Positions 14,990 to 37,694 of a stretch of DNA of 41,872 nucleotides are shown piece by piece. Numbering within the stretch: position 1 is the first letter of the stretch; the number at the start of each line of letters is the position of its first letter. Made by a program: the position numbers and the translations under genes. The stretch covers positions 1 to 41,872 of the forward strand of contig JALOOO010000042.1 of the NCBI GenBank assembly GCA_025454375.1, in the 5' to 3' direction. The DNA is from Leptolyngbya sp. Prado105. GTDB taxonomy: Bacteria; Cyanobacteriota; Cyanobacteriia; Leptolyngbyales; Leptolyngbyaceae. Below the pieces are notes generated by a model. That model saw only the letters and a program-made list of their open reading frames with translations, had not been told where the DNA came from and did not search any database.

Positions 14990-15003
14990 ACGGATTGCAG
15001 CGT

Positions 15004-18869: not shown

Positions 18870-21800
18870 ATGCGCGGCATCAAAGCCATTCCAGAGCAGG
18901 GACAACTTGTTAAAGTGCGGCAGCGCCTGTATGTGGTGACTGACGTGCGCCAGACTACGTTGCCCGCTGGTGTTTTGTTTTCCAAAATCACACCTGTTCA
19001 ACATCTCGTTTTGTTGTCCTCGATCGAAGATGATGGCTTGGGCGAAGAGCTTCAGGTGATTTGGGAGTTAGAACCTGGAACGCAAGTGTTTGAGCGAGTG
19101 GAACTGCCCAAACCCACAGGTTTTGATGATTCCGCACGACTGGATGCGTTTCTCGATGCGGTGCGGTGGGGAGCTGCTTCTTCTGCCGATATTCGCACCC
19201 TCCAAGCCCCGTTTCGGAGTGGCATTGACATTGAGGACTATCAGCTTGATCCGGTGGTTCGAGCGATTCAGATGCCGCGTGTCAATTTGCTGATCGCCGA
19301 TGATGTTGGACTCGGAAAGACGATCGAAGCAGGTCTAGTGGCTCAAGAACTCCTGATTCGTCATCGCTGTCGGCGGATGCTGATTATCTGTCCGTCTTCG
19401 CTGCAAATTCAGTGGCGTGACCAAATGCGAGATAAATTCGGGCTAGATTTTCGTATCGTCGATAGTGCCTTGATGAAGGAGTTACGGCGGCAGCGAGGGA
19501 TTCATGTGAATCCCTGGATTCATTTTCCTCGGCTGATTACCTCGATCGATTTTCTCAAGCGCGATCGCCCCCTGCGCCTTTTCCGTGAGGTGCTACCCGC
19601 AGAAGGCGAATCAATTTATCCACGTCGGTTCGATCTCTTGATTGTGGATGAAGCCCATAATGTGGCTCCCTCTGGCAGTGGGCAGTATGCGATCGATTCT
19701 CAACGCACCGCCACGATTCGCTTGCTAGTTCCGCATTTTGAACACAAATTATTTTTGACGGCAACGCCCCACAATGGCTATCCAGAGAGTTTTACAGCAC
19801 TGCTAGAACTTCTGGATACGCAACGGTTTGCTAGAGGAGTCGAGCCGGATCGCAATCAGCTTCAAGTCGTGATGGTGCGGCGGTTGAAGCAGGAAATGCA
19901 AAATTGGGATGGATCGCCCATGTTTCCGGGGCGCAAATTAGAAGCGATCGCAGTCGATTACCCACAACCAGAACGACAGGTTCATGCCGCACTCAGACGC
20001 TACACAGAGTTACGAACAAAAGGTGTGGATGACAACGTTGAAAAATACGCGACGGAATTCGTCTTGAAGCTGCTCAAAAAACGGTTGTTTTCCTCACCAG
20101 AAGCATTCTTGACGACCTTGACACAGCACCAAGACTCTTTAACCTCCGCTCGCCGTCGTCAAACCAGTCGCCTCAATGCAAAACCAACCGAAGGAATTTT
20201 GCGACGGCAACTCGAACAGGTGGAAGAGGATTTCGCAGATGACGAGCTGTACGAAGCGGCAACGGATGAGTCGATTAGCAACACGAGCCGCTTGTTTCGA
20301 TCGCTAGCTCCAGAAGAACAGGATTTACTTCGAGAAATGCTTCAGTGGGCGGAAACGGCGGCTCGACAACCCGATGCCAAAGCGGATCAACTGCTCAACT
20401 GGATTAATGCTGTCATTCGCCTCAATGGGCAGTGGTCGAATGAACGAGTGATTATCTTTACGGAATATCGAGCGACCCAGAAGTGGCTCTATAACTTGAT
20501 GGCATCGGAGGGATTAGTCCAGGGCGATCGCCTGATGATGCTTTATGGTGGGATGAATTCCGACGATCGCGAGGCAGTTAAAGCGGCATTCCAAGCGCAT
20601 CCTGATGTTTCTCCAGTTCGGATTCTATTAGCTACGGATGCAGCTTCGGAAGGTTTGGATTTACAAAACTTCTGTTCGCGGTTGATTCACTACGAAATTC
20701 CCTGGAATCCGAATCGAATGGAGCAGCGGAATGGACGCATCGATCGACATGGACAGCGATCGAGCGAAGTGCGAATCTATCACTTTGTCGGGAAGGACTA
20801 TCAGGAGCAATCCACGAGCGGGACTCGTCCAGGCGATTTAGAGGGAGACTTAGAGTTTCTGATGCGGGCGGCGCTGAAGGTCAATAATATTCGGGAAGAC
20901 CTGGGGAAAGTAGGTCCCGTGATCGCGTCGCAGGTCGAAGAAGCGATGTTGGGACGGCGGGTGACGCTGGATACGTCGAGAGCGGAGCGAGAATCGGAGC
21001 CTGTACGCCGGATGCTCAAATTTGAGCGCAAAGTGCGCGAACAGATTGAGAAGCTACGGGAGCAATTACATGAAACACGGCAAAACTTGCGGTTGACTCC
21101 AGAAAACATTGAAGCGGTGGTGCGAATTGGGTTGGAATTAGCGGATCAGCCTCCGTTGATTGAAGCAGACATCGAAGGGCTGCGAGGTCGAGCGTTTCAT
21201 TTACCGCAACTTAAGAGTAGTTGGGCGGTTTGTGCTGAGGGCTTGGAGCATCCGCACACCAAAGAGATTCGCCCGATCGTCTTTGATCCCAGTGCAGCCC
21301 ATCGACGGGATGATGTTGTTTTGGCACATCTGAATCACCGCTTGGTACAAATGTGTCTTCGCTTGCTGCGGGCGGAAGTTTGGTCTACAGAAGGCAAAAA
21401 GCAACTGCATCGAGTGGCAGCTAGAGTCGTTTCGTCACAGTCTGGGCTGGAGACTCCCGCAGCCGTCGCATATGGACGCTTAGTAATTTTGGGCAGTGAC
21501 CAGCAGCGATTGCATGAGGAAGTCATTGTGGCTGGGGGTGAATTGAAAGAGGGGCGCTTCAGTCGGTTAGGGGTGATGAAGCTGCAAGCGGCATTAGGTG
21601 CTGTCTCTGATCAAACAGTTCCCGAAGCGATGCAGCAGAAATTGGCTCAGATGTGGGACAAGTGTGAGGGTTCGCTGATGCAGGCGTTAGAGGTGCGAAA
21701 GACGGATCGATCGACGAGTCTGCGACAGGATTTGCAGAACCGGGCTGAGAAAGAAATCGCTGACATTACTGCGGTCTTGACCGAACTGCAAAAAAGCATT

Positions 21801-22028
21801 CTCGCTGAGTTGCAGGAACCTCAAATCGAACAGCTTGAAATCTTTAGTAATCCAGAGCGAGAGCAGTTTGAGCGGAATATCAATAGCTTGAAAGCGAGGC
21901 TGGAACAAATTCCGATCGAGATCGAGCAAGAAACCGCTTTGATCCGAAAGCGGTTTGAAAATCCCACGGCGCGGCTGTTTCCCCTAGCGGTCACATTTTT
22001 GGTTCCACAAAAGCTTATTCGACCCTAG
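18870..22028 (+). CDS. drmD: DISARM SNF2-like helicase DrmD
   Basis: A 1052-residue SNF2-family helicase/translocase. Motif I DVGLGKTIE is at residues 145-153, motif II DEAH at 260-263, motif III LTATPHN at 296-302, and the second RecA lobe has VIIFTEYRATQ, LLATDAASEGLDLQ and the arginine-finger region RNGRIDRHGQRS. This architecture plus the genes that follow (adenine methylase, DrmA/DrmB, phospholipase-D-like DrmC) identify class 1 DISARM, where drmD heads the operon. The C-terminal 350 residues are largely coiled helical (EREQIEKLREQLHETRQNL). It starts with ATG 18870; no good ribosome-binding site is visible. The helicase assignment is sure, and the DrmD role rests on context. Confidence 0.92.
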   Translation: MRGIKAIPEQGQLVKVRQRLYVVTDVRQTTLPAGVLFSKITPVQHLVLLSSIEDDGLGEELQVIWELEPGTQVFERVELPKPTGFDDSARLDAFLDAVRWGAASSADIRTLQAPFRSGIDIEDYQLDPVVRAIQMPRVNLLIADDVGLGKTIEAGLVAQELLIRHRCRRMLIICPSSLQIQWRDQMRDKFGLDFRIVDSALMKELRRQRGIHVNPWIHFPRLITSIDFLKRDRPLRLFREVLPAEGESIYPRRFDLLIVDEAHNVAPSGSGQYAIDSQRTATIRLLVPHFEHKLFLTATPHNGYPESFTALLELLDTQRFARGVEPDRNQLQVVMVRRLKQEMQNWDGSPMFPGRKLEAIAVDYPQPERQVHAALRRYTELRTKGVDDNVEKYATEFVLKLLKKRLFSSPEAFLTTLTQHQDSLTSARRRQTSRLNAKPTEGILRRQLEQVEEDFADDELYEAATDESISNTSRLFRSLAPEEQDLLREMLQWAETAARQPDAKADQLLNWINAVIRLNGQWSNERVIIFTEYRATQKWLYNLMASEGLVQGDRLMMLYGGMNSDDREAVKAAFQAHPDVSPVRILLATDAASEGLDLQNFCSRLIHYEIPWNPNRMEQRNGRIDRHGQRSSEVRIYHFVGKDYQEQSTSGTRPGDLEGDLEFLMRAALKVNNIREDLGKVGPVIASQVEEAMLGRRVTLDTSRAERESEPVRRMLKFERKVREQIEKLREQLHETRQNLRLTPENIEAVVRIGLELADQPPLIEADIEGLRGRAFHLPQLKSSWAVCAEGLEHPHTKEIRPIVFDPSAAHRRDDVVLAHLNHRLVQMCLRLLRAEVWSTEGKKQLHRVAARVVSSQSGLETPAAVAYGRLVILGSDQQRLHEEVIVAGGELKEGRFSRLGVMKLQAALGAVSDQTVPEAMQQKLAQMWDKCEGSLMQALEVRKTDRSTSLRQDLQNRAEKEIADITAVLTELQKSILAELQEPQIEQLEIFSNPEREQFERNINSLKARLEQIPIEIEQETALIRKRFENPTARLFPLAVTFLVPQKLIRP

Positions 22029-22067
22029 TAGGCTGGTAAGGCTGACTTTTCGTTCAATGGTGAACTT

Positions 22068-22559
22068 ATGCAAAAGACCCAAGCTTTCGCAATCCTTGCC
22101 CCGGTTCCAGAGATGCACTTGATTTCTGGATTGGAAGCGATCGCGGCTCAACTCGATTGGGATGACCTTCCTGCCGATCATGTGCCGAAAGTGGCGTTTG
22201 GCACGATGGCGTTTGAATTGTTTGCGGAAGTTGAGGCGCTGCGGGCGGGAAAAGCAATCGAGGTTTTGATCTATGCGTCTCATGCGAAAGGCGAACAGCC
22301 GTTGAACCCAGAGGCGACTTGGCGAGGACTGTACGTGGGATATGTCGGATCGCGTCGAGGTCGGTATCCAGGGAAAGCGATTTATCGTCCTAAATCGACG
22401 ATTACAGATAGTCCGACTTGGGCAGGGTTTTGGGAAGTTCAGGAATTAGAACGGCTGAAGACTACAATTCCCATTGGAAATTTGCGAGGTAAAAATAAGA
22501 AGACCCATTATCAAGCTCGATTTATTCCCGAAGGTCCAGTTCTGATCGAATTCCCCTAA
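22068..22559 (+). CDS. Unknown DISARM-associated protein (163 aa)
   Basis: A small protein between drmD and drmMI, 39 bases after the first and 3 before the second, so it is clearly in the operon. The N-terminal half is alpha/beta with an acidic patch (AAQLDWDDLPADHVPK). The centre has a Gly/Arg/Tyr-rich segment (GLYVGYVGSRRGRYPGKAIYRP) and the end is beta-rich (KKTHYQARFIPEGPVLIEF), hinting at a small nucleic-acid or modified-base binding barrel. I do not recognise the family. Its fixed position suggests a cofactor for the methylase or the helicase. Confidence 0.8.
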   Translation: MQKTQAFAILAPVPEMHLISGLEAIAAQLDWDDLPADHVPKVAFGTMAFELFAEVEALRAGKAIEVLIYASHAKGEQPLNPEATWRGLYVGYVGSRRGRYPGKAIYRPKSTITDSPTWAGFWEVQELERLKTTIPIGNLRGKNKKTHYQARFIPEGPVLIEFP

Positions 22560-22562
22560 ATT

Positions 22563-25500: not shown

Positions 25501-26234
25501 GCCGTCCTTGGTCGGGAACGGCAAGCTTAGAAGTTTCCATTGTTTGGTTGTACAAAGGTACATGGCATGGAAGAACTTTCTTAAATGAAAAGCATGTTAA
25601 AGGTATAACGCCATACTTAACTGAAGCTGGACAGTCGATCGGCAATCCATTCAGACTGATTTCAAACAAAAGTAGGGCATTTATTGGATCGTTAATTCTT
25701 GGGACAGGGTTTACCCTCACTCCAGAAGAAGCAATGTTACTGATTGAAAAAGATGTTAGTAATAAAGACGTTTTATTTCCTTATCTTAATGGCGAAGATT
25801 TAAACTCCCAGCCTAATCAAGCCGCAAGCCGCTATGTGATTAATTTCTTTGATTGGGCATTGGATGAGGAACACGATGACCCCAGAAAATTTAAAGGTAA
25901 GCCTTACGCCTTGGATTATCCGGATTGTTTAGAGATTGTCAAAAAAAGAGTTAAACCTGAACGTGACAAGCTTGGACTGAAGCAAGATTCTTCTGCTAAG
26001 GGCTATGCAAAATTTTGGTGGCTGTACGGAAGAAAAGCTCTAGAGCTTTATTCCACAATTAGAGATTGTAGACAAGTATTAGCAACGGCGGAAGTGAGCA
26101 AATACATCAATTTTGCATTTTGCTCAAGCCGAATAGTATTCTCTCATATGCTAGTTGTTTTTCCTTTTGAGAAGAACAACTACTTCAGTTGTCTTCAATC
26201 TAATGTTCATGAAATCTGGGGGGGTCAACGTTAG
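22563..26234 (+). CDS. drmMI: DISARM adenine methylase DrmMI, main part (frameshifted)
   Basis: Predicted N6-adenine DNA methyltransferase that marks host DNA in class 1 DISARM. It reads 1223 residues before an abrupt stop. S-adenosylmethionine motif I DMAMGSGAFLV is near residues 606-616, the acidic motif region VDKNPLAVEMAKLSLW near 685-700, and catalytic motif IV NPPF near 892-895. The target-recognition part lies after that. Just before the stop, the ending HEIWGGQR is produced by a run of seven G (26218-26224). With eight or five G the frame continues into a typical methylase tail, STLESRFRYTPSDCFETFPFP. The recognition segment is AT-rich and lacks HIP1 sites, unlike both flanks. Confidence 0.9.
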   Translation: MSTARHHAEWLSLVEASGPFLSLPVLLKTFPAGLDAHDPEHLKLLRSAFEEWQDNQFGLKPEPAIHRAWVEFVLKQTLELPDEVLLSGQQIPSGLSVTFAEQNETIRPDWVVVEPTGTPNAGKPRFLVQIVSAEQGLEKPLKGARSSSSPATRMMELLHACNVRLGLVTNGEHWMLINAPKGETTGFISWYSTLWIEEHLTLRAFRSLLGVRRFFGVDDSQILEKLLADSLTDQQEVTDQLGYQVRRAVEMLVSAIARLDQDQNGALLKDISESKLYEAALTVMMRLVFLFCAEERGLLLLGDPIYDQHYAVSTLREQLRSHADQYGEEVLERRSDAWCRLLATFRAVYGGIFHDTLQLPAYGGSLFDPNRFPFLEGRAKGTNWLESEADPLRINNRIALHLLEALQILQIRVPGGVEPRRLSFRTLDIEQIGHVYEGLLDHTAVRATVPVLGLVGTRYQEPEIELAELERYRAESEDKLWVFLKEQMGKSPAAIKKLLNAEIEPREVQRLRTACNNDPDLFDRVLPFAGLVRKDTLDYPIVILAGSVYVTEGVDRRQSGTHYTPRNLTEEIVQYTLEPLVYEGVAEGKPKEAWRLRSPSELLQLKICDMAMGSGAFLVQTCRYLAGKLVESWQQAEAEHPGQIVIAPEGTLSIALPEECPIPKEPEERLLVAQRIVADRCLYGVDKNPLAVEMAKLSLWLVTLAKGRPFTFLDHALKWGDSLLGLTRAEQIEFLSLNPNPEMEQLSIAAQTWRPILQDAIAKRRKLESFSTNVIQDLQEKERLYAEAEQEIERLRFVGDYLIGRALADAEKTANLATEELMVISDRISRELQRKETEAESLEIRALKESTERMMNLGNPANQAPRKPFHWLLEFPEVFLEGEAKGFSAIVGNPPFQGGKKITGALGTNYREFLVTHLANNIKGNADLCAYFFLQTEQLLNKLGGFGLVATNTIAQGDTREVALDQLSTNSNVITRAISSRPWSGTASLEVSIVWLYKGTWHGRTFLNEKHVKGITPYLTEAGQSIGNPFRLISNKSRAFIGSLILGTGFTLTPEEAMLLIEKDVSNKDVLFPYLNGEDLNSQPNQAASRYVINFFDWALDEEHDDPRKFKGKPYALDYPDCLEIVKKRVKPERDKLGLKQDSSAKGYAKFWWLYGRKALELYSTIRDCRQVLATAEVSKYINFAFCSSRIVFSHMLVVFPFEKNNYFSCLQSNVHEIWGGQR
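26218..26224 (+). repeat. Homopolymer run of seven G causing the drmMI frameshift
   Basis: The reading frame breaks exactly in this G7 tract. G8 or G5 would fuse the two halves of drmMI. G-tract phase variation switches the related PglX methylase gene of the Pgl system in Streptomyces, so a contingency locus is possible, as is sequencing error. Confidence 0.9.
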
Positions 26235-26746
26235 AAAGTCGCTTCAGATATACTCCCTCTGACTGCTTTGAAACCTTTCCTTTCCCCACATCCGATCCCT
26301 CAGATCTCAGCACCCAATTCCCAACCCTAAACGCGATCGGCGAAACTTACTACACCCATCGCCAATCCATCATGCTCGATCGACAAGAAGGACTGACCAA
26401 AACCTACAACCGCTTCCACGACCAGACCCAAATCGCAGACGACATTGCGAAACTACGATCGCTGCACATCGAAATGGATCAACAAGTCGCGATCGCCTAT
26501 GGTTGGCAAGACCTCGACTTAGGGCACGACTTCCACCCAACCAAGCAAGGCATCCGCTTTACGATTAGCGAAACGGCGCGGCGGGAAGTCCTCGATCGAC
26601 TGTTGCAACTGAACCACGACCGATACGCTGAAGAAGTCGCCCAAGGCTTACACGACAAGAAAAAATCTAAAGGTAAAACTAGCGGCAAGAAAAAAGCAAC
26701 AAAGCCAGCAGATTCCTCGGACACTGTACAAGGGAGCTTGTTTTAG
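26225..26746 (+). pseudogene. drmMI: DrmMI C-terminal part, out of frame
   Basis: Continuation of drmMI in another frame, 173 residues to the stop at 26746. It begins STLESRFRYTPSDCFETFPFP, the motif that normally closes the target-recognition region in this methylase class, then a helical tail (YYTHRQSIMLDRQEGLTKTY, AIAYGWQDLDLGHDF) and a lysine-rich end. On its own the first ATG is at 26372, without a good ribosome-binding site, so separate translation is unlikely to give a working subunit. The sense strand here is C-rich while the upstream part is G-rich, suggesting a different ancestry for the tail and downstream genes. Confidence 0.85.
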
Positions 26747-26802
26747 ACCGCTTCATCCGGCACCCGAATATGTAAAATCTCGTTTCGCATCAAGGGTTTA
26801 AT

Positions 26803-26988
26803 CTATGACTCTGAAACCGCTAAAACTGTGAGCGTTTCTTTGATCGCATTAACCACCTCCAAACTGTAGCTATCTTTCCCTACTGTTACTGGATGGTGAT
26901 CAATAATCGTTGCCACATCGCCTTGATGCAACTGATGCTTAGGAAAATCATCCCGCAAAGCAACTCTCGCAAACAATTCAAACATCAT
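26803..26988 (-). CDS. DUF4926 small protein
   Basis: A 61-residue protein read leftward inside the defence island. The start at 26988 (double ATG) is preceded by AGGAGG with a 6-base gap, an excellent ribosome-binding site that rules out longer starts. The opening MMFELFARVALRDDFPKHQL and the GDVATIIDHH segment match the DUF4926 pattern (core ..L-GDVGTVV..). DUF4926 proteins are often beside DUF6883 proteins and are suspected antitoxin or immunity-like partners, but no DUF6883 is seen here. It lies between drmMI and the DUF4365 gene and opposes the operon direction. Confidence 0.75.
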   Translation of the reverse strand: MMFELFARVALRDDFPKHQLHQGDVATIIDHHPVTVGKDSYSLEVVNAIKETLTVLAVSES

Positions 26989-27126
26989 CTTCTGCCTCCT
27001 AATGTCGATACAACGTGGCAATCTTTGTCACCTATCCAAGAAACGCAATCATTCTTAATATTTCTCGCCAAAAAAGGCATTTTTTGAGAGAATCAGGGCT
27101 ATATAGTATAAATGATCTGAATTGAG

Positions 27127-27660
27127 ATGGCGGAAGGCTTAACGACTGGCGGAATGTACAGAACCCTTCAGCAAGAAGAGTTCAGCTATGCCTATTTGGA
27201 TGCGATCGCAGCCGTTGCTGGATACGCTCTGCAAGTCAAAGGCAGAGCGCTCGATAACGCTGGAATCGATATCTCGGTTGAAGTGCCTGGAGAAATTGGC
27301 AGAGTCCTCTCCCCCAGGTTCGATGCCCAAGTCAAGTGCATCTCCGATAGCAGCATTATTCGTGATGAATTTGTCCATTATGCCCTTGCCGTTCATAACT
27401 ACCGTCGTCTAATCCACCCCAATCCGAGTTGTCACCAGCTTCTGATCCTCGTCTTTGTTCCCAGAGATACGGCAAACTGGCTAGATATCACAGAAGATCA
27501 AACTCTCCTCAAAAAGTGCGCCTACTGGATATCGTTAAAAGGAGCGCCTCCCACTCAAAATACAGAAACAATTACCGTTCAGGTTCCTCGCAAAAACCTT
27601 TTGACTCCAAATACGCTCCAAACCATCATGCAAACCATTGCAGAAGGTGAAGCTCTATGA
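27127..27660 (+). CDS. DUF4365 putative nuclease
   Basis: A 177-residue protein of the DUF4365 family, a PD-(D/E)xK-like nuclease fold. Near the N-terminus QQEEFSYAYLDAIAAVAGY is typical, followed by the D of AGIDISVE (near 48-53) and the D-A-Q-V-K motif (near 66-70), the likely metal-binding and catalytic residues. LLILVFVPRD, CAYWISLKGAPP and the VPRKNLLTPNTLQ ending are also family features. Its stop overlaps the next start (ATGA, 27657-27660), so it forms a coupled pair with the 379-residue protein. Found inside DISARM, it may be an effector nuclease of an embedded two-gene module. Confidence 0.85.
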   Translation: MAEGLTTGGMYRTLQQEEFSYAYLDAIAAVAGYALQVKGRALDNAGIDISVEVPGEIGRVLSPRFDAQVKCISDSSIIRDEFVHYALAVHNYRRLIHPNPSCHQLLILVFVPRDTANWLDITEDQTLLKKCAYWISLKGAPPTQNTETITVQVPRKNLLTPNTLQTIMQTIAEGEAL

Positions 27661-28796
27661 AACTACCAGAAATCAGTTTAGAAAAATTCTACGCGATTAA
27701 TCCAGAAACGGTGGCAACTTACCTCCGCAGCAATGGTTGGCAGGAACAAACACAAAGCGAAAATCAACACTCAATCTGGCAATTTGTGAGTGAGGCTAGA
27801 GGGGAATTTATCTTACTCCTGCCACTCAACCCTGAGATTCCTGACTTTCCTGATCGCATGTATGACACTTTTCGGACACTCGCGATCGTCGAGCAACGCT
27901 CTGAAGCCTTAATTTTTAACGATCTAGCAGATGTTCGTTATGTGGCTAAGGAAAAAGAGCGCGAAATCTTGAACCTTAGACTTAATTTTGTGGATGGTCA
28001 GCCTCAGATTAGCTTTCAAGAAGCACCTGCCAAGCGGCTTGCGATGATTCTAGGTTCACTCCAAGACACGCTTGATGCGATCGGACAAGTCAAAGCAGGA
28101 CGAGCAACACCATTCGGCAAAGTCGCAGAAGAAATCACAGCACAAACCCAACTTTCTGTCTTGGGAATCTTCAAAGGCTCTTTTGGTATTCGGCTGGCTT
28201 CTGCGGCTCCCTCAATTCAACAACTCAGTTTTTTAGAGAATCCTCTCGCTGAAAGTGTGCTTGAAGAATTTCTAGAATTGGTCAATCAAAGCACCAATGA
28301 AACTAGACTGCGAGAAATTCTAATTCGCCTACAGAGACGGTCAGCCTCTCGATACCGCAAATTTCTCTTGTCACTAGTGGATGCAAACGCTGATCTTTAC
28401 CTTGACTGGGGTTCTTCCAATACCGAGAAAGGCGGTTCTGCTGCACTCTCTACCCTCAGCGCGTTGAATGCAGTTGAGATTGTTCGCAAAATGGAAGTTG
28501 AGTCGCCAGTTGAGTTCGAGATTCGGGGACAGCTTCTCTCGGCTAGCACAACCCGAAAAACCTTCGAGATTAGGGATATCATCGAGGGTGTTTCCTATTC
28601 CGGCAAAATCACAGATAACGCGATCGAAGATGAAGTTGAGTTAACTTTAACAAAGAAACTTTACTCCGCTCGTCTCCAAGAAATCGTTAAGACGAACCCT
28701 ACAACAGGTGAAGGTAGCATTGAGTATAAGCTAGTTTCCCTCCGAACCTGGAACACGAATTCTCAACCAACCCAGCAGGAAGATTTGGTGAGTTAA
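27657..28796 (+). CDS. Unknown partner of the DUF4365 nuclease (379 aa)
   Basis: I do not recognise a domain. The N-terminal ~100 residues are alpha/beta (ETVATYLRSNGWQEQ, then an acidic proline-rich turn and MYDTFRTLAIVEQRS). The middle has a short glycine motif LGIFKGSFGIRLAS near 170-183, followed by a helical region with ETRLREILIRLQRRS. The C-terminal third is beta-rich (EFEIRGQLLSASTTRKTFEIRD, then VSYSGKITDNAIEDEVELTL), which could be a small binding barrel. Translationally coupled to the DUF4365 gene, so likely its sensor or regulator. It is 121 bases before the helicase fusion gene. Confidence 0.75.
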   Translation: MKLPEISLEKFYAINPETVATYLRSNGWQEQTQSENQHSIWQFVSEARGEFILLLPLNPEIPDFPDRMYDTFRTLAIVEQRSEALIFNDLADVRYVAKEKEREILNLRLNFVDGQPQISFQEAPAKRLAMILGSLQDTLDAIGQVKAGRATPFGKVAEEITAQTQLSVLGIFKGSFGIRLASAAPSIQQLSFLENPLAESVLEEFLELVNQSTNETRLREILIRLQRRSASRYRKFLLSLVDANADLYLDWGSSNTEKGGSAALSTLSALNAVEIVRKMEVESPVEFEIRGQLLSASTTRKTFEIRDIIEGVSYSGKITDNAIEDEVELTLTKKLYSARLQEIVKTNPTTGEGSIEYKLVSLRTWNTNSQPTQQEDLVS

Positions 28797-28917
28797 TTCA
28801 ATACTCGTTTCGGCAGTTCTTCGTTATCATGTGCCAAGATTAACCCTGTCGTAGCCGTAGAAAACACTTACTTCTGCGATCACGACATTCGATGTTCGAT
28901 TCAGCCCCGGAACTCTT

Positions 28918-31032
28918 GTGCCTTTTGAGATCATCCACAAGCCCACCTTCACCAATCAACTCCTCGCCATTCCAAAAGAGCGAGTCCTACAGATATTGGA
29001 GAAAATCGAGGTGCTTCGAGACGATCCCAAACCTCACAGCAATCTGAAGAAAAAGCTACACGGTTATAAAGGCGATATTTATCGTCTGCGCTCCGGGGAT
29101 TACCGCATTATTTATACCTACGGAGATGGTTGGGTCGCTCTGTTGGGAGTCGATGCCCGCAAGGACGTTTATAAGGGCAGTAAATTAGTCGCAGAGGAAA
29201 CGGAGATCAATGTCGCTGCCTTTTCTAATCTTGAAGATCTCCTCACACCTGAAAAATCGCCGTCTGCACCCCCTAAATCTGCTGAAACCACAACGCCTTT
29301 ACCCGTCGAGCTAACTGAAGAACTGCTCGATCGCTTGCTCATCCCCAAAGCCTGTTATCCGGCTTTGCTTGCCTGCCGTACCTTTGATGATCTGCTCGAA
29401 GCGGATATTCCGGCTGGGGTGTGCGATCGCGTTTTTGACTGCATCACCGCGCCGAATTTTGACTTAGTACTCAGACAACCAAGTTTTGTCACCGGAAGCT
29501 CAGACGAACTCCTGCGCTTTAAAGAAGGAGATTTGCTTGGTTTTCTGCTCAAGCTCAATTCGGAACAGGAGAAATATGTCACCTGGGCACTGAACGCGGT
29601 CGGTCCTACCCTACTCAAAGGCAGTCCTGGGACAGGTAAAAGCACCGTCGCAATTTATCGCACTCGCGAAATTCTCAATCAGCTCAAAGCGAGTCAAGAT
29701 AGCTCCGCTACACGGGTACGTGCCCGCTCACCTCGAATTCTATTCACCACTTATACGAATGCGCTCGTTTCATTCTCTGCACAATTGCTACAGCAGCTTT
29801 TAGGCGATGATGCTCAGCTTGTCGAGGTCAAAACTGCTGATGCTTTGATGTACTTGATTGTGTGCCAACTCAGCGGACAACCCCAAATTGGAACAACCAG
29901 AGAACTGCTCAAACTTGTTCAGCAAGCCATTCCCTGTGCGATCTCAACCCTAGAAGGCAATGTTCTACAGCAACAGGCACAACGTTTGATTCTGCAACGC
30001 CTTCAGCCCGAATACTTACTTGAAGAGCTGATCGAAGTCATTGATGCAAGAGGAATTGATTGCTTAGAGGACTATCAAGCAACTCCGCGCACAGGTCGCA
30101 ACATTCCTCTCAATAAGATTCAACGTCAAGCTGTTTGGAACCTGCGGCAACAGTTCAATCGCCTCTTGAATATGAAAGGAATGGAAACTTGGGCACAAGT
30201 GAGACTTCGTGCCCTCAAACTGCTACAGAATAGCGAAATGTTGCCAATGTATGATGCTGTGGTCATCGACGAAGCTCAAGATCTCAGTCCTACAGTCCTC
30301 CGTTTCCTAATTCAACTCTGTGGCGCACCGAATCGAATCTTCATTACTGCTGATGCCAATCAATCGATTTATGGCAGTAGTTTCCGGTGGAGTGATGTGC
30401 ATGAGTCGCTCAAATTTGTCGGACGCACAGGCATTCTGAAAATTAATCACCGTACTACTCAAGAGATTGGAGAAGCTGCCTATTCGTATTTGAAAGACGG
30501 CACACTCGATCCAGAAGGTGAGGAGCGACTTTACGTTCATACAGGTCCATCACCTGCGGTTCGTGCCATCGTCGATCGCGCTTCTGAAGGGAATTTACTC
30601 GCTCAATTCTGCCGCACGGCTGCCCACGAATTCCGTTTGGGACTCGGAGCCTGCGCGATTCTTGTTCCAACTGAAAAAGCAGGAAAAAACATTGCTGGAC
30701 AGTTGAATTATCTGGGAATTGAAGCCCGATTCATGACCAGCAAGGACTTAGATCTCAACTGTAAGGGGGTGAAAATTTTGCCGCTCAAAGCTGCCAAAGG
30801 ATTAGAGTTCCCGATCGTCGCGATCGCAGGGTTTCTAGAAGCCCCCTATCCGACCATCCCGAAAGGTACTCTCCCCGAAGCTGCCACTGAAACTTTCGTC
30901 CGAGAACGGCGCACCCTCTATGTTGCGATGACCAGAGCGATGCGTGCCCTACTCGTTCTCGTTCCTGCCAAAAAACCGTCACTGCTTCTACAATCCTTTG
31001 ACCCCCAACTCTGGAACCTCGGCGAATCATGA
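28918..31032 (+). CDS. RelE-like / UvrD-like helicase fusion
   Basis: A 704-residue protein from a GTG at 28918. Residues 1-90 look like a RelE/ParE toxin fold (LQILEKIEVLRDDP, LHGYKGDIYRLRSGDYRIIYTY, VDARKDVYKG). From about 225 there is a superfamily 1 helicase: Walker A GSPGTGKST, Walker B VVIDEAQD, SIYGSSFRW, INHRTTQEIGEAA, LPLKAAKGLEFPIVAIAG and YVAMTRAMRALLVLVP. The fusion suggests the toxin-like part targets the helicase to ribosomes, RNA or a trigger, or that it has lost toxicity. Its stop overlaps the start of the drmA-drmB gene (ATGA, 31029-31032), so it is co-translated with the DISARM core. Confidence 0.88.
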   Translation: MPFEIIHKPTFTNQLLAIPKERVLQILEKIEVLRDDPKPHSNLKKKLHGYKGDIYRLRSGDYRIIYTYGDGWVALLGVDARKDVYKGSKLVAEETEINVAAFSNLEDLLTPEKSPSAPPKSAETTTPLPVELTEELLDRLLIPKACYPALLACRTFDDLLEADIPAGVCDRVFDCITAPNFDLVLRQPSFVTGSSDELLRFKEGDLLGFLLKLNSEQEKYVTWALNAVGPTLLKGSPGTGKSTVAIYRTREILNQLKASQDSSATRVRARSPRILFTTYTNALVSFSAQLLQQLLGDDAQLVEVKTADALMYLIVCQLSGQPQIGTTRELLKLVQQAIPCAISTLEGNVLQQQAQRLILQRLQPEYLLEELIEVIDARGIDCLEDYQATPRTGRNIPLNKIQRQAVWNLRQQFNRLLNMKGMETWAQVRLRALKLLQNSEMLPMYDAVVIDEAQDLSPTVLRFLIQLCGAPNRIFITADANQSIYGSSFRWSDVHESLKFVGRTGILKINHRTTQEIGEAAYSYLKDGTLDPEGEERLYVHTGPSPAVRAIVDRASEGNLLAQFCRTAAHEFRLGLGACAILVPTEKAGKNIAGQLNYLGIEARFMTSKDLDLNCKGVKILPLKAAKGLEFPIVAIAGFLEAPYPTIPKGTLPEAATETFVRERRTLYVAMTRAMRALLVLVPAKKPSLLLQSFDPQLWNLGES

Positions 31033-34000
31033 AGATTATCAAGCTCCCAGCAATCCTTCCCGGCACTCTCGATCTAGAAAAGATCAATCAACAATTGCGC
31101 GATCGTACTGCTCAACTCGATTGGAGTGTGGTTGTTTCAGCATCTGATCAGTCTCTCAATACTTTACTTGTTGGACTTGATTTATCAGACGATGCAGATG
31201 TTTTGGGAGATAGTACGTTGTCGGAAACGATCGCGAGCAAGATCGTGCAGGTGCTTCAGGAACAACCAGAACCTACTAAAGCTAAACAGTCAGAGCCATC
31301 TGAACCCAAAATTGCTCCTGCTGTTTGGCAGCAGTCCACCCTATTGGAGCCTCAGTTTGTCGCAACGAATTTAGAACAAAATGAGGGGCAAGGCAATCTG
31401 ATCGAGGTTCAGTTCGTCCCAACTCCTTCATCGGAAGCGAATTCACCTGCTGCGGAGAATGACAAAGCGCTATCCCCTAATGCTTCGCCTGTTATACAGC
31501 CCCCTTCCTACTACCAAATTCGAGCCGAGCTAGAGGAAGCTGTCTTAGCCGACTTGTTAGGTCCAGCAGGCGGAGAATACGAAGAAGTGGATGAAGCGCG
31601 AGTCAGCGATCGCTACCTCGTCGGACTACTGGCTCCCCTACATCGACGCAATCGCCCCGCTCAATCCGATGATCAACTTGAACAGCTTGAACTGATCGCC
31701 GCGAAGACTGGAACCGTTGATGAAAGTACCGAGCAGCTCGACGAATTAGCTGTGGGTGGAACCAGTACGATCGAGGATGGCACAACCGAAACGATCACTC
31801 CCGCGATCGAAACCATGTTTCCCTCCTCGCTGGGAATGAGCTTCTGTGTGAGTGGTACTGCTAAAGCCATCACGATCAAAGCGGGATGGGGGCAATATGA
31901 TCGCACCAAGAGCGAGTATCTCCAAACTTCAACAGGCGCACCTAAAGCCGTATGGCGCAGGTATCCGGTGATTGGGCAATCTCCGCCCATTGTTCTAAAA
32001 GCAGGTGCAGTTAATTCCTGGCGGATCGACCCAGAGCGCGAAGTTTATGTGCGTGGGCAAATTCGTGCTGTTGGCTCCGATTGGATTATCAGCTTGTTCT
32101 TAGTTAATGAACAGCGAGAACCCGATCGCTCTCCGGATCAGGCATGGCTATTTCAGCCCGAACTCAGCGTTGAATCTGCTGACCCCGATCATCGTGATAT
32201 TTTTATCCGTAAAGCAACGAGGCGATCGCTCGGCAAACTCGACCCTGTACAGTACGCCGAAGAACAAGCGATGGAGATGATCTATCGGCATCAAGTTGAA
32301 TTTGCCGTTGGACATGGGATGGGCGTTCACGCTGAATTAGCAGAAGGAAGCCAGGATCACGCGATTCGTCTTTGCACTCGTGTCGTTCCCGCTTATGAAG
32401 TTCCTAAAACGGATGCTCCTACGCCAGACGAAATTCCTGGACTGGCAGGACTTGTTCTAGATATGAAGGAGTTAGCAGAATCGACTCCAGAAGCTTTGGC
32501 TACGAAGCTGAATCCGCTCGTTGCTGCGTATGCGAACTGGATAGAAGGACAGGCTGCTCGGATTGCTGATCCAACGACCAAATTGCAGGGTTATGAAGCG
32601 ATCGCAACGGATGCTCTCGCTAACTGTACTCGCGCTTTAGAACGCATTCAGTCGGGACTGGAACTACTACAATCTGATGCACAAAGTTTTGAAGCGTTTC
32701 AGTTCATGAATCGCTCAATGTGGCAACAGCGAGTTCATTCCCTTTATGCAGAACAGATTCGCCGGGGTGAGGCTCTAGAACTTGGCACGATCGATATTCC
32801 AAGAAATCGGTCTTGGCGACCCTTCCAGCTTGCATTTATCCTGCTCAACCTGCCAAGCATTACTGACCTGAATCATCCAGATCGCACCCATGAAACACAA
32901 GCGATCGCAGATTTACTTTGGTTTCCCACAGGAGGAGGTAAGACGGAAGCCTACCTGGGACTGACCGCTTACACGATCGGATTGCGACGATTGCAAGGTA
33001 CGATCGCAGGGCGCTCTGGTGAATCAGGTGTTGCCGTGTTAATGCGCTATACGCTCCGACTGCTCACTCTGCAACAATTTCAACGCGCTACAGCTTTAAT
33101 CTGTGCCTGTGAAGCAATCCGTCGAGAAGATCCTGTGAAATGGGGAAACGAACCGTTTCGGATCGGATTGTGGGTTGGACAGAAAACGACTCCCAATCGC
33201 ACTGAACAAAGTGAAGAATTCCTCAAGCAAAATCTTAAAACAGAAAAATATCAACCTACGAGCAGCGGTTCTCCCCACCAGCTCACGAACTGTCCTTGGT
33301 GTGGTTTCAAGATTGACCCTGGCAAACAAAATATCAAAGTTGAATCCTTTGCAAAGGGGCAGGCACGGACGCTGATTTACTGTGGTGACACCCTCGGTCG
33401 CTGCTTATTTTCCCAGAAACAATCTCCCACTGAAGGTTTACCGATCCTCGTTGTCGATGAAGAGATCTACCGTCGTTTACCGACTCTGCTGATTGCAACG
33501 GTCGATAAATTTGCTCAAATGCCCTGGAATGGAGCAGTGCAAATGTTGTTTGGGCAGGTTGAAGGCTACTGTCAACGACATGGATTTGTGTCTCCTGAAA
33601 TTGAAGATTCTCCGAGTCATCCCGCGAAGTACGGGCAACCGTCTGCCAAGACCCTATCCCATAACCCGTTGCGTCCTCCAGATTTGATCATTCAAGACGA
33701 GTTACACCTGATTAGTGGACCCCTTGGAACTTTAGTAGGACTGTATGAAACAGCAGTCGATCAACTGTGTTCCTGGACAGTGAATGGCAAAACGGTTCGC
33801 CCCAAAGTGATTGCTTCCACAGCAACGATTCGGCAAGCACGAGATCAAATCCATCATCTTTTCCTGCGCCAAGTGCAGATCTTTCCACCGCAAGGCTTAG
33901 ATGTGACTGATAACTTCTTCTCACTGCAACGAGAGCCAAGTGAAGACTATCCTGGACGGCGGTATCTAGGCATCTGTGCAACGGGACGCAGATTAAAAGC

Positions 34001-36887
34001 TGCTTTAATTCGAGTCTACACCGCAGGGCTTGCAGCATCTCAGGCGCTTTACCAGAAGTATGGCGAAGCGGCTGACCCGTGGATGACGTTGGTCGGTTAC
34101 TTCAACTCGATGCGAGATTTGGGTGGAACTCGGAGATTGGTTGACGATGACATTCAATCGCGACTTGGCAAGATGGATCAACGGGGACTCGCCAAGCGAT
34201 CGCGCATTGAGGTCAAAGAACTCACGTCTCGAATTGCTTCGACGGATATCCCGATCGTGTTAGATGCGCTAGAAGTTCCGTTCAATCCGAATCGGGACAA
34301 AAAAGTAGATCCTCGCAAGCCGATCGATGTTTTACTCGCAACGAACATGATTTCGGTCGGTGTCGATGTCCGACGATTAGGCGCGATGGTCGTGACTGGA
34401 CAACCGAAAACAACCGCAGAGTATATTCAAGCCACGTCGCGGGTTGGACGAACGTTTCCTGGCATCGTGTTCACCGTTTATAACTGGGCACGACCGAGAG
34501 ATTTATCTCACTATGAGCAGTTTGAACACTATCACGCGACGTTCTACAAGCACGTTGAAGCATTATCGGTGACTCCCTTTGCGCCGCGTGCCATCGATCG
34601 GGGACTCGCTGCTTTACTCGTTGCACTCGTGCGGTTGAAAGGAACGGAACTCAACAAGAATGACAAAGCTGGACGCATCGATCGCAATCATCCGCATATT
34701 CAAGAAGCAATGAATACGATCGTGACCCGTGCTGCCAATGTAGAAGGACTCAAAACGCGAGATTTGGTCAGACAGGAATTAGAAGCCAAACTCGACTACT
34801 GGCTAGAACAATCTGCGAACTTAATCGGTGGAGCCGTGCTGGGCTATCAAGCTCAGAAAGATGGCGTGACTCAAGGGTTACTCACGCAGCCTGGACAGGG
34901 AGATTGGCAACCGTTTACCTGTTTGAACTCGCTTCGCAATGTGGAACCGACGATCGGGCTAATTCTCGACGATCGCATTCCCGATGATGATTTCCGTACT
35001 CCGATTGAAATCCTTATGGCACAAGCACAACCTCGTAATAAAGTTGGTGAACTCCGACCCAGCCAGATTCTCTTTTCGGCGGGTATCGGCTCCGTGATTG
35101 ATTTACCCAATCTTTCCACAATGGTGATGGGACTCGATGATTGGGACATTAATCATTCAAAAGAATTAGGAGAGGAACGATTGCTTGGAGCGGTGAAGCG
35201 ATCTCTCTCATCCTCTGTAAAACGCTTACTGTCTCCACCCCTGCCTCCCGAATCCGATGCAGTGCCAAGCTTTCTCGACGAAAGCCACCGAGTCGGGATT
35301 CCAGTTTCCCCATTTCCCACCTGGATGCTCTGCCCGAATTGTCGCCTGCTGGCACCGCTACAGTCTCGATTGTTTGATCTCAAAACGGATCGCTTTCGTC
35401 CTGATCAAAACCGCTATGTCCACACGAACTGTCCGAAGGGCAAATACCCGCCGACAGTGATTCCAGCTCGTTTTCTTGTTGCCTGTAAGCATGGGCATTT
35501 AGATGACTTTCCTTGGCGGTACTTTGTTCATCGTGGTGCGGATTGCAAGAAAGGAACCCTACGGCTGCACGAGTATGGTGTATCCGGCTCTGCGGCGGAT
35601 ATTGAGGTGAAATGTGATAGCTGTGGAGCGACCCGGCGAATGTCTGATGCCTTTGGTGAACCCGGCAAAAAGAATATGCCTCAGTGTCGCGGTCGCCATG
35701 TTCACCTGCGGAATTTCGATGAAGGCGGTTGCGACCAACAGATGGTTGGCATTTTGTTGGGCGCTTCTAATAGCTGGTTTCCCATTACCCTGTCTGCGCT
35801 TTCAATTCCAACAGCAACCGATAAGCTGGCGCAACTAATCGAAAAACATTGGACAGTTCTAGAGAAAGCGGTTAGTCCAGAAGTCCTCGCTGCGTTTCGC
35901 TCAATTGGGCAATTGAAAGAATTTGCTAAATACTCAGATTCGGAGATTTGGGCACAAGTTCAGCAGAAGCGATCTGAAACGATCGACGACGAAAGTAGTG
36001 AAGCGAAAGATATTAAAACTCCAGAGTGGCAAGTGTTTTCAGCCGCAGAAACAAGCCTAAATTCGCCGGATTTTTGGCTTACGCCTGTTACGTCTCCCAA
36101 AGGCTATGAGTCTTATATTGAGAAGGTGGTACTAGTCGATCGCTTGCGAGAAGTCCGAGCATTAGTCGGTTTTTCACGCATCGAATCTCCCGGCGATTTT
36201 GCTGAAACTGGAGAGTTACCCGAAGATTACTGGGCACCCCTCAGCCGTCAAGAGCCAAAGTGGGTTCCGGCTACCGAAGTTCGGGGAGAAGGGCTATTCA
36301 TTCAATTTAGTGAAGCTGCGATCGCACAATGGGAAACTCTACCCGAAGTGTTGATCTACGAAAAACAGAGCATTGAAGCTCATCGTCGTTGGCGCACGGC
36401 GCGATCGCTGAATCCAGATACGAACTATCCAGGCGTTCGATACATTCTGCTGCATTCTTTTGCTCATGCTTTGATGCGACAATTTGCGATCGAGTGTGGC
36501 TATACGGCTGCGAGTCTCCGAGAGCGCATCTATTCAAAAGATGCACACGACGAGAACGGACCCCAGGCAGGGATTCTGATTTATACGGCTGCTCCAGATA
36601 GTGAGGGCACATTAGGAGGGCTTGTCAGCTTAGGAGAGCCTGCTACTCTCGGTCGCCATATTGATCAGGCATTAGAGCAAATGTGTCTATGTGCCTCCGA
36701 TCCGCTGTGCGCGGAACATAGTCCACTACAGTCTCCTAATACACTGCACTGGGCGGCTTGTCACGCTTGTCTCTTTAGTCCAGAAACGTCGTGTGAACGA
36801 GGCAATAAGTACCTCGATCGAACGGTACTCATTCCAACCGTTAAGACTGAACTCTCTCAACTTGCCTTTTTTAAGTTTGGGGATTGA
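31029..36887 (+). CDS. drmAB: DrmA-DrmB fusion, DISARM core
   Basis: A 1952-residue chain joining two DISARM core proteins that are normally separate. The DrmA part (to about 1330) is a helicase/translocase: WFPTGGGKTEAYLGL (Walker A, ~632-646), IIQDELHLISGPLG (motif II, ~887-900), then MISVGVDVRRLGAMVVTGQP and ATSRVGRTFPG (~1108-1145). The DrmB part starts at about 1336 with LRPSQILFSAGIGSVIDLP. It carries zinc-binding cysteines (CPNC, CDSCG) and a C-terminal DUF1998 region, RYILLHSFAHALMRQFAIECG, with a C-rich end (CLCASDPLC, CHAC, SCERGN). An in-frame ATG at 35016 sits at the junction, marking an old drmB start. DrmA and DrmB form a complex on incoming DNA; fusion fixes 1:1 stoichiometry. 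Confidence 0.93.
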   Translation: MKIIKLPAILPGTLDLEKINQQLRDRTAQLDWSVVVSASDQSLNTLLVGLDLSDDADVLGDSTLSETIASKIVQVLQEQPEPTKAKQSEPSEPKIAPAVWQQSTLLEPQFVATNLEQNEGQGNLIEVQFVPTPSSEANSPAAENDKALSPNASPVIQPPSYYQIRAELEEAVLADLLGPAGGEYEEVDEARVSDRYLVGLLAPLHRRNRPAQSDDQLEQLELIAAKTGTVDESTEQLDELAVGGTSTIEDGTTETITPAIETMFPSSLGMSFCVSGTAKAITIKAGWGQYDRTKSEYLQTSTGAPKAVWRRYPVIGQSPPIVLKAGAVNSWRIDPEREVYVRGQIRAVGSDWIISLFLVNEQREPDRSPDQAWLFQPELSVESADPDHRDIFIRKATRRSLGKLDPVQYAEEQAMEMIYRHQVEFAVGHGMGVHAELAEGSQDHAIRLCTRVVPAYEVPKTDAPTPDEIPGLAGLVLDMKELAESTPEALATKLNPLVAAYANWIEGQAARIADPTTKLQGYEAIATDALANCTRALERIQSGLELLQSDAQSFEAFQFMNRSMWQQRVHSLYAEQIRRGEALELGTIDIPRNRSWRPFQLAFILLNLPSITDLNHPDRTHETQAIADLLWFPTGGGKTEAYLGLTAYTIGLRRLQGTIAGRSGESGVAVLMRYTLRLLTLQQFQRATALICACEAIRREDPVKWGNEPFRIGLWVGQKTTPNRTEQSEEFLKQNLKTEKYQPTSSGSPHQLTNCPWCGFKIDPGKQNIKVESFAKGQARTLIYCGDTLGRCLFSQKQSPTEGLPILVVDEEIYRRLPTLLIATVDKFAQMPWNGAVQMLFGQVEGYCQRHGFVSPEIEDSPSHPAKYGQPSAKTLSHNPLRPPDLIIQDELHLISGPLGTLVGLYETAVDQLCSWTVNGKTVRPKVIASTATIRQARDQIHHLFLRQVQIFPPQGLDVTDNFFSLQREPSEDYPGRRYLGICATGRRLKAALIRVYTAGLAASQALYQKYGEAADPWMTLVGYFNSMRDLGGTRRLVDDDIQSRLGKMDQRGLAKRSRIEVKELTSRIASTDIPIVLDALEVPFNPNRDKKVDPRKPIDVLLATNMISVGVDVRRLGAMVVTGQPKTTAEYIQATSRVGRTFPGIVFTVYNWARPRDLSHYEQFEHYHATFYKHVEALSVTPFAPRAIDRGLAALLVALVRLKGTELNKNDKAGRIDRNHPHIQEAMNTIVTRAANVEGLKTRDLVRQELEAKLDYWLEQSANLIGGAVLGYQAQKDGVTQGLLTQPGQGDWQPFTCLNSLRNVEPTIGLILDDRIPDDDFRTPIEILMAQAQPRNKVGELRPSQILFSAGIGSVIDLPNLSTMVMGLDDWDINHSKELGEERLLGAVKRSLSSSVKRLLSPPLPPESDAVPSFLDESHRVGIPVSPFPTWMLCPNCRLLAPLQSRLFDLKTDRFRPDQNRYVHTNCPKGKYPPTVIPARFLVACKHGHLDDFPWRYFVHRGADCKKGTLRLHEYGVSGSAADIEVKCDSCGATRRMSDAFGEPGKKNMPQCRGRHVHLRNFDEGGCDQQMVGILLGASNSWFPITLSALSIPTATDKLAQLIEKHWTVLEKAVSPEVLAAFRSIGQLKEFAKYSDSEIWAQVQQKRSETIDDESSEAKDIKTPEWQVFSAAETSLNSPDFWLTPVTSPKGYESYIEKVVLVDRLREVRALVGFSRIESPGDFAETGELPEDYWAPLSRQEPKWVPATEVRGEGLFIQFSEAAIAQWETLPEVLIYEKQSIEAHRRWRTARSLNPDTNYPGVRYILLHSFAHALMRQFAIECGYTAASLRERIYSKDAHDENGPQAGILIYTAAPDSEGTLGGLVSLGEPATLGRHIDQALEQMCLCASDPLCAEHSPLQSPNTLHWAACHACLFSPETSCERGNKYLDRTVLIPTVKTELSQLAFFKFGD

Positions 36888-36890
36888 TCG

Positions 36891-37694
36891 GTGGAAATGT
36901 TCTCTCCCAACCTACTAGAACAAATTCGCCGCGTGGCTCAGGAAGTTCCTGTCTCAACGCTGGATGCTTTGATTCAAGCTCTCATGAGGATGAATCAGGG
37001 CGAATTGCCCAAAATGAGGCACAATCTTCTCCAACTGATTCCCAGAGCAGCGTGGCGGCAAGAGTTCAATCACCTGATTGAGATTTGGCAGGCAGAGACC
37101 AGTGACCTGGATGGCAGAGCGATTGCGATCGCGCTTTCTACAGCAGTTCATTGTCAGACTCGAATGCGCCAGGATCTATCAGTTGAACTCGTTTGGACAG
37201 GACCAAATCCAGAATCTTTTCCGTTGCGTCGAACCGATCAAACCTTGCTGCAACTGATTCGAGATGCACGGCACGATCTTCTAATCGTTAGCTTTGCAAT
37301 CTATAATATTCCTGAAATTGTTGGGGCATTAATTGCAGCGCTGGATCGTGGTGTCAACATTCGCATCGTCGCAGAAACTCCCGAAGCCAGCGATGGCAAG
37401 ATTTCATTTGGGCTTTCGTCAACGTTTGGGGCTGAGGTTCTTAGGCGGTCGCAACTCTACGTCTGGCTGAAAGCGAAACGTCCGGTCGATGAGCAAGGCA
37501 GGTATGGCTCACTTCATGCCAAATGTGCCGTGAGCGATCGACAACATCTTTTTGTCTCCAGTGCAAACTTGACTGAGTATGCCATGTCGCTCAACATAGA
37601 GATGGGCGTATTGATTCACAATCAGAGCTTGGCAGAACAAGTAATTCAGCAGATTGATAGCTTAATCCTGCACGGGAACTTGTCGATTTGCTAG
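36891..37694 (+). CDS. drmC: DISARM phospholipase-D-like protein DrmC
   Basis: A 267-residue protein, third core DISARM gene, starting 3 bases after the DrmA-DrmB stop (GTG 36891, or ATG 36897). One HKD motif of the phospholipase D superfamily is present near residues 208-215, in SLHAKCAVSD, followed by LFVSSANLTEYAMSLNIEMGVLI. Only one HKD copy is seen, so the nuclease-like enzyme would act as a dimer, as is usual for small PLD proteins. In DISARM, DrmC is reported as partly dispensable. The N-terminal half is helical. It closes the plus-strand operon and converges with the minus-strand membrane-protein gene 76 bases on. Confidence 0.92.
   Translation: MEMFSPNLLEQIRRVAQEVPVSTLDALIQALMRMNQGELPKMRHNLLQLIPRAAWRQEFNHLIEIWQAETSDLDGRAIAIALSTAVHCQTRMRQDLSVELVWTGPNPESFPLRRTDQTLLQLIRDARHDLLIVSFAIYNIPEIVGALIAALDRGVNIRIVAETPEASDGKISFGLSSTFGAEVLRRSQLYVWLKAKRPVDEQGRYGSLHAKCAVSDRQHLFVSSANLTEYAMSLNIEMGVLIHNQSLAEQVIQQIDSLILHGNLSIC

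Follow-up and report, generated by a model that had tools for sequence, protein, structure and literature searches.

Introduction

Helicases of the YprA family usually carry the helicase core and an OB-CON-DUF1998 module in one chain, with DISARM being the split exception, according to the available part of PMC12458937. The same text describes ARMADA type II, in which the YprA helicase ends in a C-terminal Vsr-type nuclease domain and a gene for a RelE-GajB-like helicase follows the YprA gene. The DISARM structure from Serratia reveals that the C-terminal pivot arm of DrmA lies within the OB fold of DrmB, and the purified DrmA-DrmB complex is already ~1:1 (PMC9142583, in part). The accessible sections of a paper covering cyanobacterial DISARM report no complete system and make no mention of a fusion (PMC9716671). 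Here we describe a DISARM locus on a contig of Leptolyngbya sp. Prado105 (the window, 41,872 nucleotides), in which drmA and drmB are joined in one frame (Table 1).

Table 1. Features of the DISARM locus, with positions in the window
Feature	Position	Strand	Remarks
drmD, SNF2-like helicase, 1052 aa	18870..22028	+	NCBIfam DISARM_DrmD E=0 over 8-1048; GLGKT and DEAH motifs
163-aa protein between drmD and drmMI	22068..22559	+	without known family
drmMI, first 1223 residues	22563..26234	+	PADLOC DrmMI profile 4-1182/1347; NPPF motif at 893
drmMI C-terminal end, other frame	26372..26746	+	PADLOC DrmMI profile 1229-1342/1347
DUF4365 protein, PADLOC candidate PDC-M02A	27127..27660	+	also in L161 at 48%
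PADLOC candidate PDC-M02B	27657..28796	+	overlaps PDC-M02A stop; also in L161 at 48%
RelE/ParE-like domain fused to UvrD/GajB-like helicase, 704 aa	28918..31032	+	stop overlaps drmA start
DrmA part of fused ORF	31029..34994	+	~residues 1-1322; NF038325, 7s9v_A alignment, motifs
Junction	34995..35033	+	~residues 1323-1335; low confidence in predicted fold
Relic drmB start codon	35016..35018	+	aligned with drmB ATG of four unfused relatives
DrmB part of fused ORF	35034..36887	+	~residues 1336-1952; NF038324, 7s9v_B alignment, Foldseek
drmC, phospholipase D-like	36891..37694	+	NCBIfam DISARM_DrmC_I 1.9e-70; one H-x-K at 209

Gene content of the operon

The gene order is drmD, a 163-aa ORF, drmMI, extra genes, the joined drmA and drmB, and drmC. 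PADLOC and NCBIfam models were matched for all five DISARM genes, in agreement with the class and gene order of the original prediction, and membership of class 1 DISARM is supported at the level of sequence. DrmD scores 1381.4 bits with NF038317 (cut-off 610) and the PLD-type DrmC 237.1 bits with NF038319 (cut-off 133). The 163-aa protein is not matched by any PADLOC, Pfam or NCBIfam model; its orthologues adjoin drmD in genomes G404 (86%) and G185 (80%).

drmMI is present (PADLOC E=0) but spread over two frames in this assembly. Its longer part holds the core of the adenine methyltransferase along with most of the target-recognition region, and the frame changes close to a G7 run at 26218, the window's only run of at least seven G or C. 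In five relatives, drmMI is one open frame of 1376-1419 codons from stop to stop.

Four accessory genes had been proposed between drmMI and drmA. That count does not hold, as one of these ORFs is the out-of-frame C terminus of drmMI and another, directly upstream of drmA, is a recurrent helicase partner. The latter matches UvrD-helicase (Pfam, 1.7e-19), while its ParE_toxin match (1.4e-4, 22.8 bits) lies just under the Pfam cut-off of 23; 19 of 20 aligned N-termini match ParE_toxin. This RelE/ParE-UvrD helicase recurs upstream of drmA in many relatives among cyanobacterial DISARM loci, tying DISARM to ARMADA by content. A tentative reading, possible but rather doubtful, is that the ArmD-like helicase works in many cyanobacterial class 1 DISARM operons, which would then stand between DISARM and ARMADA and have a second arm directed at nucleic acid. 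The window's lineage would also have gone back to the single-chain helicase of ARMADA and MrfA, and the slot between drmMI and the helicase gene would collect other defence genes in some lineages.

DrmA and DrmB share one reading frame

The ORF at 31029-36887 encodes 1952 residues and is open from end to end, without an internal stop. Residues 164-1313 match NCBIfam DISARM_DrmAS (NF038325; profile 1-1165/1165) with 1442.6 bits (cut-off 950), and residues 1338-1937 match DrmB_fam (NF038324; profile 1-604/604) with 711.5 bits (cut-off 240). The DrmB part also matches Pfam MZB (5.6e-10), as expected of a DUF1998/MZB protein, and the motifs GGGKT (635), DELH (890) and QATSRVGR (1134) are intact in the DrmA part. 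By sequence alignment, the solved chains 7s9v_A and 7s9v_B correspond to residues 157-1322 and 1336-1949, respectively, with borders close to those of the family models. The usual class 1 layout, which was not used to define membership, has drmA and drmB as separate genes, whereas here there is one open frame. With both models covered whole, the predicted DrmA-DrmB fusion is confirmed in this sequence, that is, in one genome and one assembly.

In four close relatives, including one from the same genus, drmA and drmB are separate. Codon 1330 of the fused ORF is an in-frame ATG (35016) to which the drmB start codons of all four align; judged from these alignments, it is the old drmB start, as originally proposed. 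The pairwise alignments reveal a junction 20-25 nt shorter in the window, and the conserved DrmA tail of the relatives is absent. A deletion at the boundary (20-25 bases net) would have removed the last drmA codons together with the stop and set drmB in frame, yielding a single DrmAB chain.

Distribution and ancestry of the fusion

A search for other fused DrmA-DrmB proteins, called for in the original prediction, found no other whole fusion among the loci read, leaving the window's genome as the sole case. The family search and a gene-order search covered an identical set of 42 genomes, and the latter yielded nothing further. Open-frame lengths had suggested fusions in G129, G048, G002, G191, G042, G197 and G116 (the last with one stop), but each locus has separate ORFs, since open-frame length merges same-frame neighbours. 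In G585 the DrmB open frame spans 2142 aa, but because a run of N separates drmA from drmB there, this does not demonstrate a fusion. Locus L053 (G048:C193), with a DrmA piece and a DrmB piece in frame, is the remnant of an internal deletion rather than a whole fusion.

In the tree, the window's DrmA nests among unfused DISARM DrmA rows (five-row clade, SH-aLRT 100). Because of this position, and because no other whole fusion occurs in the loci read, the fusion is derived. Unique non-synonymous changes are few in the window's gene (DrmA, 2 versus 11 synonymous; DrmB, 2 versus 8), small counts that cannot tell changes before the fusion from changes after it.

Alternative explanations

A joined frame could be a sequencing or assembly artefact, with drmA and drmB separate in the living cell. 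The fusion is seen in one genome only, from a single assembly of 383 contigs, drmMI on the same contig shifts frame at a homopolymer, and no other locus read holds a whole fusion. However, the junction does not differ from the relatives by a one-base slip: 19+1, 23+2 and 23+2 bases are missing relative to three of them and a net 21 relative to the fourth, bases adjoining the alignment gaps have changed, and the DrmA and DrmB halves are otherwise open. We therefore regard an artefact as very unlikely. Relaxed selection could also have produced the fusion as a by-product of a decaying operon, in keeping with the frame change in drmMI and with the restriction of the fusion to one genome. Against this, the remaining operon frames are open, and the per-site N/S of the window's unique changes is 0.018-0.028 in drmD, the N part of drmMI, RelE-UvrD, DrmA and DrmB, which makes decay improbable; the value for drmC is 0.16, from 7 changes.

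The frame could instead be joined while ribosomes still start at ATG 35016, producing free DrmB beside the fused DrmAB. This ATG and the codons after it are conserved with the relatives, and Shine-Dalgarno pairing is not strictly required in cyanobacteria. Yet anti-SD pairing upstream of the ATG is +0.3 kcal/mol in the window, whereas the four relatives have -5.8, -6.7, -2.7 and -2.7. The contrast is weak, as the median for random 14-mers drawn from the window is -1.8 and drmD, drmMI and M02A likewise score near zero. Internal initiation seems unlikely.

Predicted structure and working of the single chain

The fold model covers residues 985-1952 with a mean pLDDT of 77.6; an earlier model from 16 rows (mean pLDDT 55.9) was set aside. 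The model used places the arm strand at 1309-1313 and the first DrmB strand at 1337-1342; its pLDDT drops below 50 over 1321-1334 and likewise over 1299-1305, the latter holding the DNA-contacting valine. Foldseek matches the model to 7s9v_B (TMt 0.91), such that the DrmB-like domain predicted for the C-terminal third is present as a fold. The structural match to 7s9v_A is poor (TM 0.16 and 0.12; rmsd 15.6 over 352 columns), and the model therefore does not show how DrmB would sit relative to DrmA within the single chain. No MrfA chains are among the Foldseek matches listed.

Homology and prediction suggest that the pivot-arm sequence of DrmA is kept and runs via ~13 probably flexible residues into the start of DrmB. 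We consider it likely that a boundary deletion in this class 1 DISARM operon created one DrmAB chain that functions like the normal DrmA-DrmB complex. The pair would become obligate, and in that sense the fusion would fix DrmA and DrmB at 1:1 as claimed, but the ratio itself is not new given the Serratia complex. Judging from this locus, a small deletion may be enough to reverse the split in DISARM, since DrmA and DrmB are already interlaced at that point. With a natural single-chain DrmAB, one can readily test whether activation of DISARM depends on the pivot arm being a free end, and the one-gene construct is convenient for structure work. As a natural experiment on a familiar machine, it is useful, if modest.

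Comparison with known systems

Like class 1 DISARM of Serratia (PDB 7s9v, 7s9w; PMC9142583, in part), the window has drmD, drmMI, drmA, drmB and drmC, and its sequence matches the two solved chains, covering DrmA from residue 131 onwards and almost all of DrmB. The two differ in that the window's DrmA and DrmB are one chain and its operon contains the RelE/ParE-UvrD helicase and other genes, whereas the Serratia operon, as described there, additionally has a cytosine methyltransferase.

Candidate identity as ARMADA type II was rejected. No nuclease domain was matched after DrmB (Pfam finds MZB and Helicase_C only, and the protein ends 15 residues past the DrmB model), and the RelE/ParE-UvrD gene precedes the YprA gene instead of following it. 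The window also has the PLD protein drmC, and its DrmA matches DISARM models.

The single-chain YprA-family helicases MrfA, DpdJ, DruE and ArmC likewise combine the helicase core with the OB-CON-DUF1998 module (PMC12458937), a layout that the fusion would restore. However, family models and tree place the window's protein within DISARM, where its single-chain state arose secondarily. The novelty claimed for a natural fusion was overstated, the single-chain layout being usual in the YprA family outside DISARM.

Operon organization and the fused reading frame

The operon lies entirely on the forward strand and runs drmD, a 163-aa ORF, drmMI, extra genes, a 1952-aa ORF and drmC. As originally predicted, DrmA and DrmB share one frame: the 1952-aa ORF is open from end to end without an internal stop and contains complete matches to two NCBIfam profiles, DISARM_DrmAS at residues 164-1313 and DrmB_fam at 1338-1937. 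In a phmmer search of the PDB (E threshold 0.001), it matched two different chains of the solved Serratia complex, 7s9v_A (DrmA) on 157-1322 and 7s9v_B (DrmB) on 1336-1949, which therefore place the junction at about residues 1323-1335. The fusion is confirmed in the assembled sequence, and the system is a class 1 DISARM carrying a derived single-chain DrmAB, which probably works like the normal DrmA-DrmB complex. The first 156 residues of DrmA form an N-terminal extension that many cyanobacterial DrmA proteins have and that no Pfam family credibly matches.

Locations of the features discussed (window positions unless another source is named)
Feature	Location	Strand	Remark
Tn5-family transposase gene	6213-7532		upstream of operon
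CHAT-domain proteins	9563-11875; 14995-17286; 39161-41773	-; +; -	flanking operon
PAPS-reductase-domain protein	17499-18653		just upstream of drmD
drmMI, first segment	22563-26234	+	DrmMI profile 4-1182
drmMI frame change	near 26218
drmMI, second segment	26372-26746	+	DrmMI profile 1229-1342
Slot	26747-28917
RelE/ParE-UvrD helicase	28918-31032	+	704 aa
DrmA-DrmB ORF	31029-36887	+	1952 aa
DrmA N-terminal extension	31029-31500	+	residues 1-156
Relic drmB start (ATG)	35016	+	in frame; codon 1330
Second drmA, drmB, drmC set	G000:C92:1335-7463 (L050)		window's own genome
DrmA-DrmB remnant	2485-4473, G048:C193 (L053)
Split drmA, G404	15784-17310 (L156)
Split drmA, Planktothrix rubescens	7997-9151 (L074)

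Selection was gauged from codons altered only in the window versus otherwise identical relatives (three to five per gene). Non-synonymous and synonymous changes numbered 2 and 11 in DrmA, 2 and 8 in DrmB, 4 and 41 in drmD, 3 and 24 in the N part of drmMI, 1 and 12 in RelE-UvrD, and 3 and 4 in drmC. On these counts the locus lacks the appearance of an old pseudogene; the numbers are low, however, and give no date for the fusion.

The four accessory genes of the original prediction did not survive, as the second drmMI segment, matched by the same DrmMI model, is part of drmMI in another frame. The frame change lies near the window's only run of at least seven G or C, inside the divergent target-recognition part, and drmMI is a single open frame of 1376-1419 codons in five relatives. 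It may be a sequence error, a switchable tract acting as a slippage switch of the methyltransferase, or a true break.

Origin and rarity of the fusion

The junction was compared in four near relatives: G404, a member of the window's own genus; Myxacorys californica (L054, whose contig is that of G185); Tildeniella nuda (L056, whose contig is that of G416); and Leptolyngbyaceae MP9P1.79 (L055). In all four, DrmA ends with a conserved DDFRxPQPMPSS plus one residue before the stop, and the drmB ATG aligns with the ATG of the window, bearing out the proposed relic start codon. The interval between the codon of the motif's arginine and the ATG measures 21 bases in the window versus 41 in G404, 46 in Myxacorys, 46 in Tildeniella and 42 in L055, making the window shorter by 20, 25, 25 and 21 bases, respectively; its alignments contain two gaps each against the first three (19+1, 23+2 and 23+2) and several against L055. 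Anti-Shine-Dalgarno pairing 5' of the ATG is -5.8 (Myxacorys), -6.7 (L055), -2.7 (Tildeniella), -2.7 (G404) and +0.3 kcal/mol (window), a weak difference because the median for random window 14-mers is -1.8 and three further genes of the window lie near zero. In an 87-row DrmA tree, which left out loci without a DrmA match of >1000 residues, rows of <36% identity and listed duplicates, the window and its four unfused relatives form a five-row clade (SH-aLRT 100), within which the window groups with three of the four (fork support 80). Judged from these sequences, the split state of drmA/drmB came first in this lineage and the fusion arose from it. Breaks of another kind also occur: the drmA 5' end of G404 lies ~1.1 kb apart from the remainder of the gene, and drmA of Planktothrix rubescens is likewise split.

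Other fusions were sought, and no whole one appeared among the loci read. Both genes were present in 17 of 20 stretches (L034-L053), where the only ORF with parts of both, in L053, was rejected as a remnant in which an internal deletion has put pieces of DrmA and DrmB into one frame. Both were also present in 97 of 102 further loci (L054-L155), with no ORF matching DrmA plus DrmB; this set comprised the best 80 of 554 confirmed relatives from a species-level genome collection, 4 viral-contig loci and 18 loci of the window's family, some genomes being counted twice. DrmB_fam scored above cut-off in 64/217, 11/61 and 74/388 genomes (three overlapping sets, the last including the window), with open frames of at most 711 aa except in the window (1961) and in genome G585 (2142), which was rejected since a run of N separates drmA from drmB. 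Plasmids yielded 87 matching records; 25 of the 30 listed have at least two named features beneath the match, the other five being H5, H8 and H28-H30. The fusion is unique among the loci read, though not proved unique. Titles and abstract openings from searches of open-licence papers, together with passages of PMC12458937 and PMC9142583, yielded no report of a fused DrmA-DrmB, a weak negative. The window's own genome also holds a second, distant and unfused drmA, drmB and drmC set on an 8.6 kb contig, its DrmA ~40% identical.

Helicase, slot and neighborhood

At 27 loci, a RelE/ParE-UvrD helicase match lies no more than 3 kb upstream of drmA and on its strand; removing three second copies (L056/L158, L140/L161 and L066/L142) leaves 24. 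It is absent there from 45 loci with at least 3 kb read, which include at least one double (L085/L086) and many distant systems; a further 28 loci were too short, 11 lacked a drmA start, and 13 duplicate or partial loci had been left out beforehand. Within the 34-row cyanobacterial clade of the DrmA tree, the helicase is present in the window and in 19 other rows; of the remaining 14, seven have <3 kb to read and seven truly lack it. ARMADA II has such a RelE helicase, ArmD, and the RelE passages of the same paper do not name DISARM for an ArmD-type helicase (PMC12458937).

The stretch between drmMI and the helicase varies among lineages and resembles a cargo slot within the operon: the relatives' loci L035, L159, L055 and L161 each hold different defense-type genes there. 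Ten chosen proteins from seven loci were scanned with PADLOC (threshold 1e-5), and seven, from four loci, matched its models. In G185 these were sacsin-like and DarT-like proteins, with weak matches to TmtA and, for DarT, a Pfam match at 3.2e-23; G416 gave IetA/IetS and a ResIII helicase, L055 a Uma2 protein, and L161 a HIRAN protein adjoining PDC-M02A/B. Slot proteins of L057 and L059 and a protein of L082, its position relative to drmMI not seen, had no PADLOC match.

One of the flanking CHAT-domain proteins carries CHASE2 and another TPR repeats. The PAPS-reductase-domain protein has no match in the relatives' printed stretches, many of which end short of that position.

Structure of the join

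A fold prediction for residues 985-1952 (76 alignment rows) gave a mean pLDDT of 77.6 and a pTM of 0.74. Foldseek matched it to 7s9v_B (TMt 0.91, rmsd 3.2), and the C-terminal third therefore has the DrmB fold, as anticipated; 7s9v_A was a poor structural match (TM 0.16 and 0.12, rmsd 15.6). The 50 matches listed include no MrfA chain. Within the Serratia complex, residues 1296-1319 at the C-terminal end of DrmA wrap around the N-terminus of DrmB and contribute a strand to the DrmB OB fold; V1296 contacts DNA bases (PMC9142583). Over the linker at 1290-1340, the prediction recovers the arm strand (1309-1313), followed by the first DrmB strand at 1337-1342, and falls below pLDDT 50 at 1321-1334 and 1299-1305, among others. 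The 7s9v_A alignment ends with chain residue 1313 at window residue 1322; if it is ungapped between 1296 and 1313, V1296 would correspond to V1305, which is invariant in alignment A3 (16 rows). The Serratia structure is our main reason to infer that a short flexible link forms the join, at a place where DrmA and DrmB already touch. In the YprA family, according to PMC12458937, the helicase and OB-CON-DUF1998 usually form one chain and are consistently separate only in DISARM; on that account, the fusion in the window is a return to the common form.
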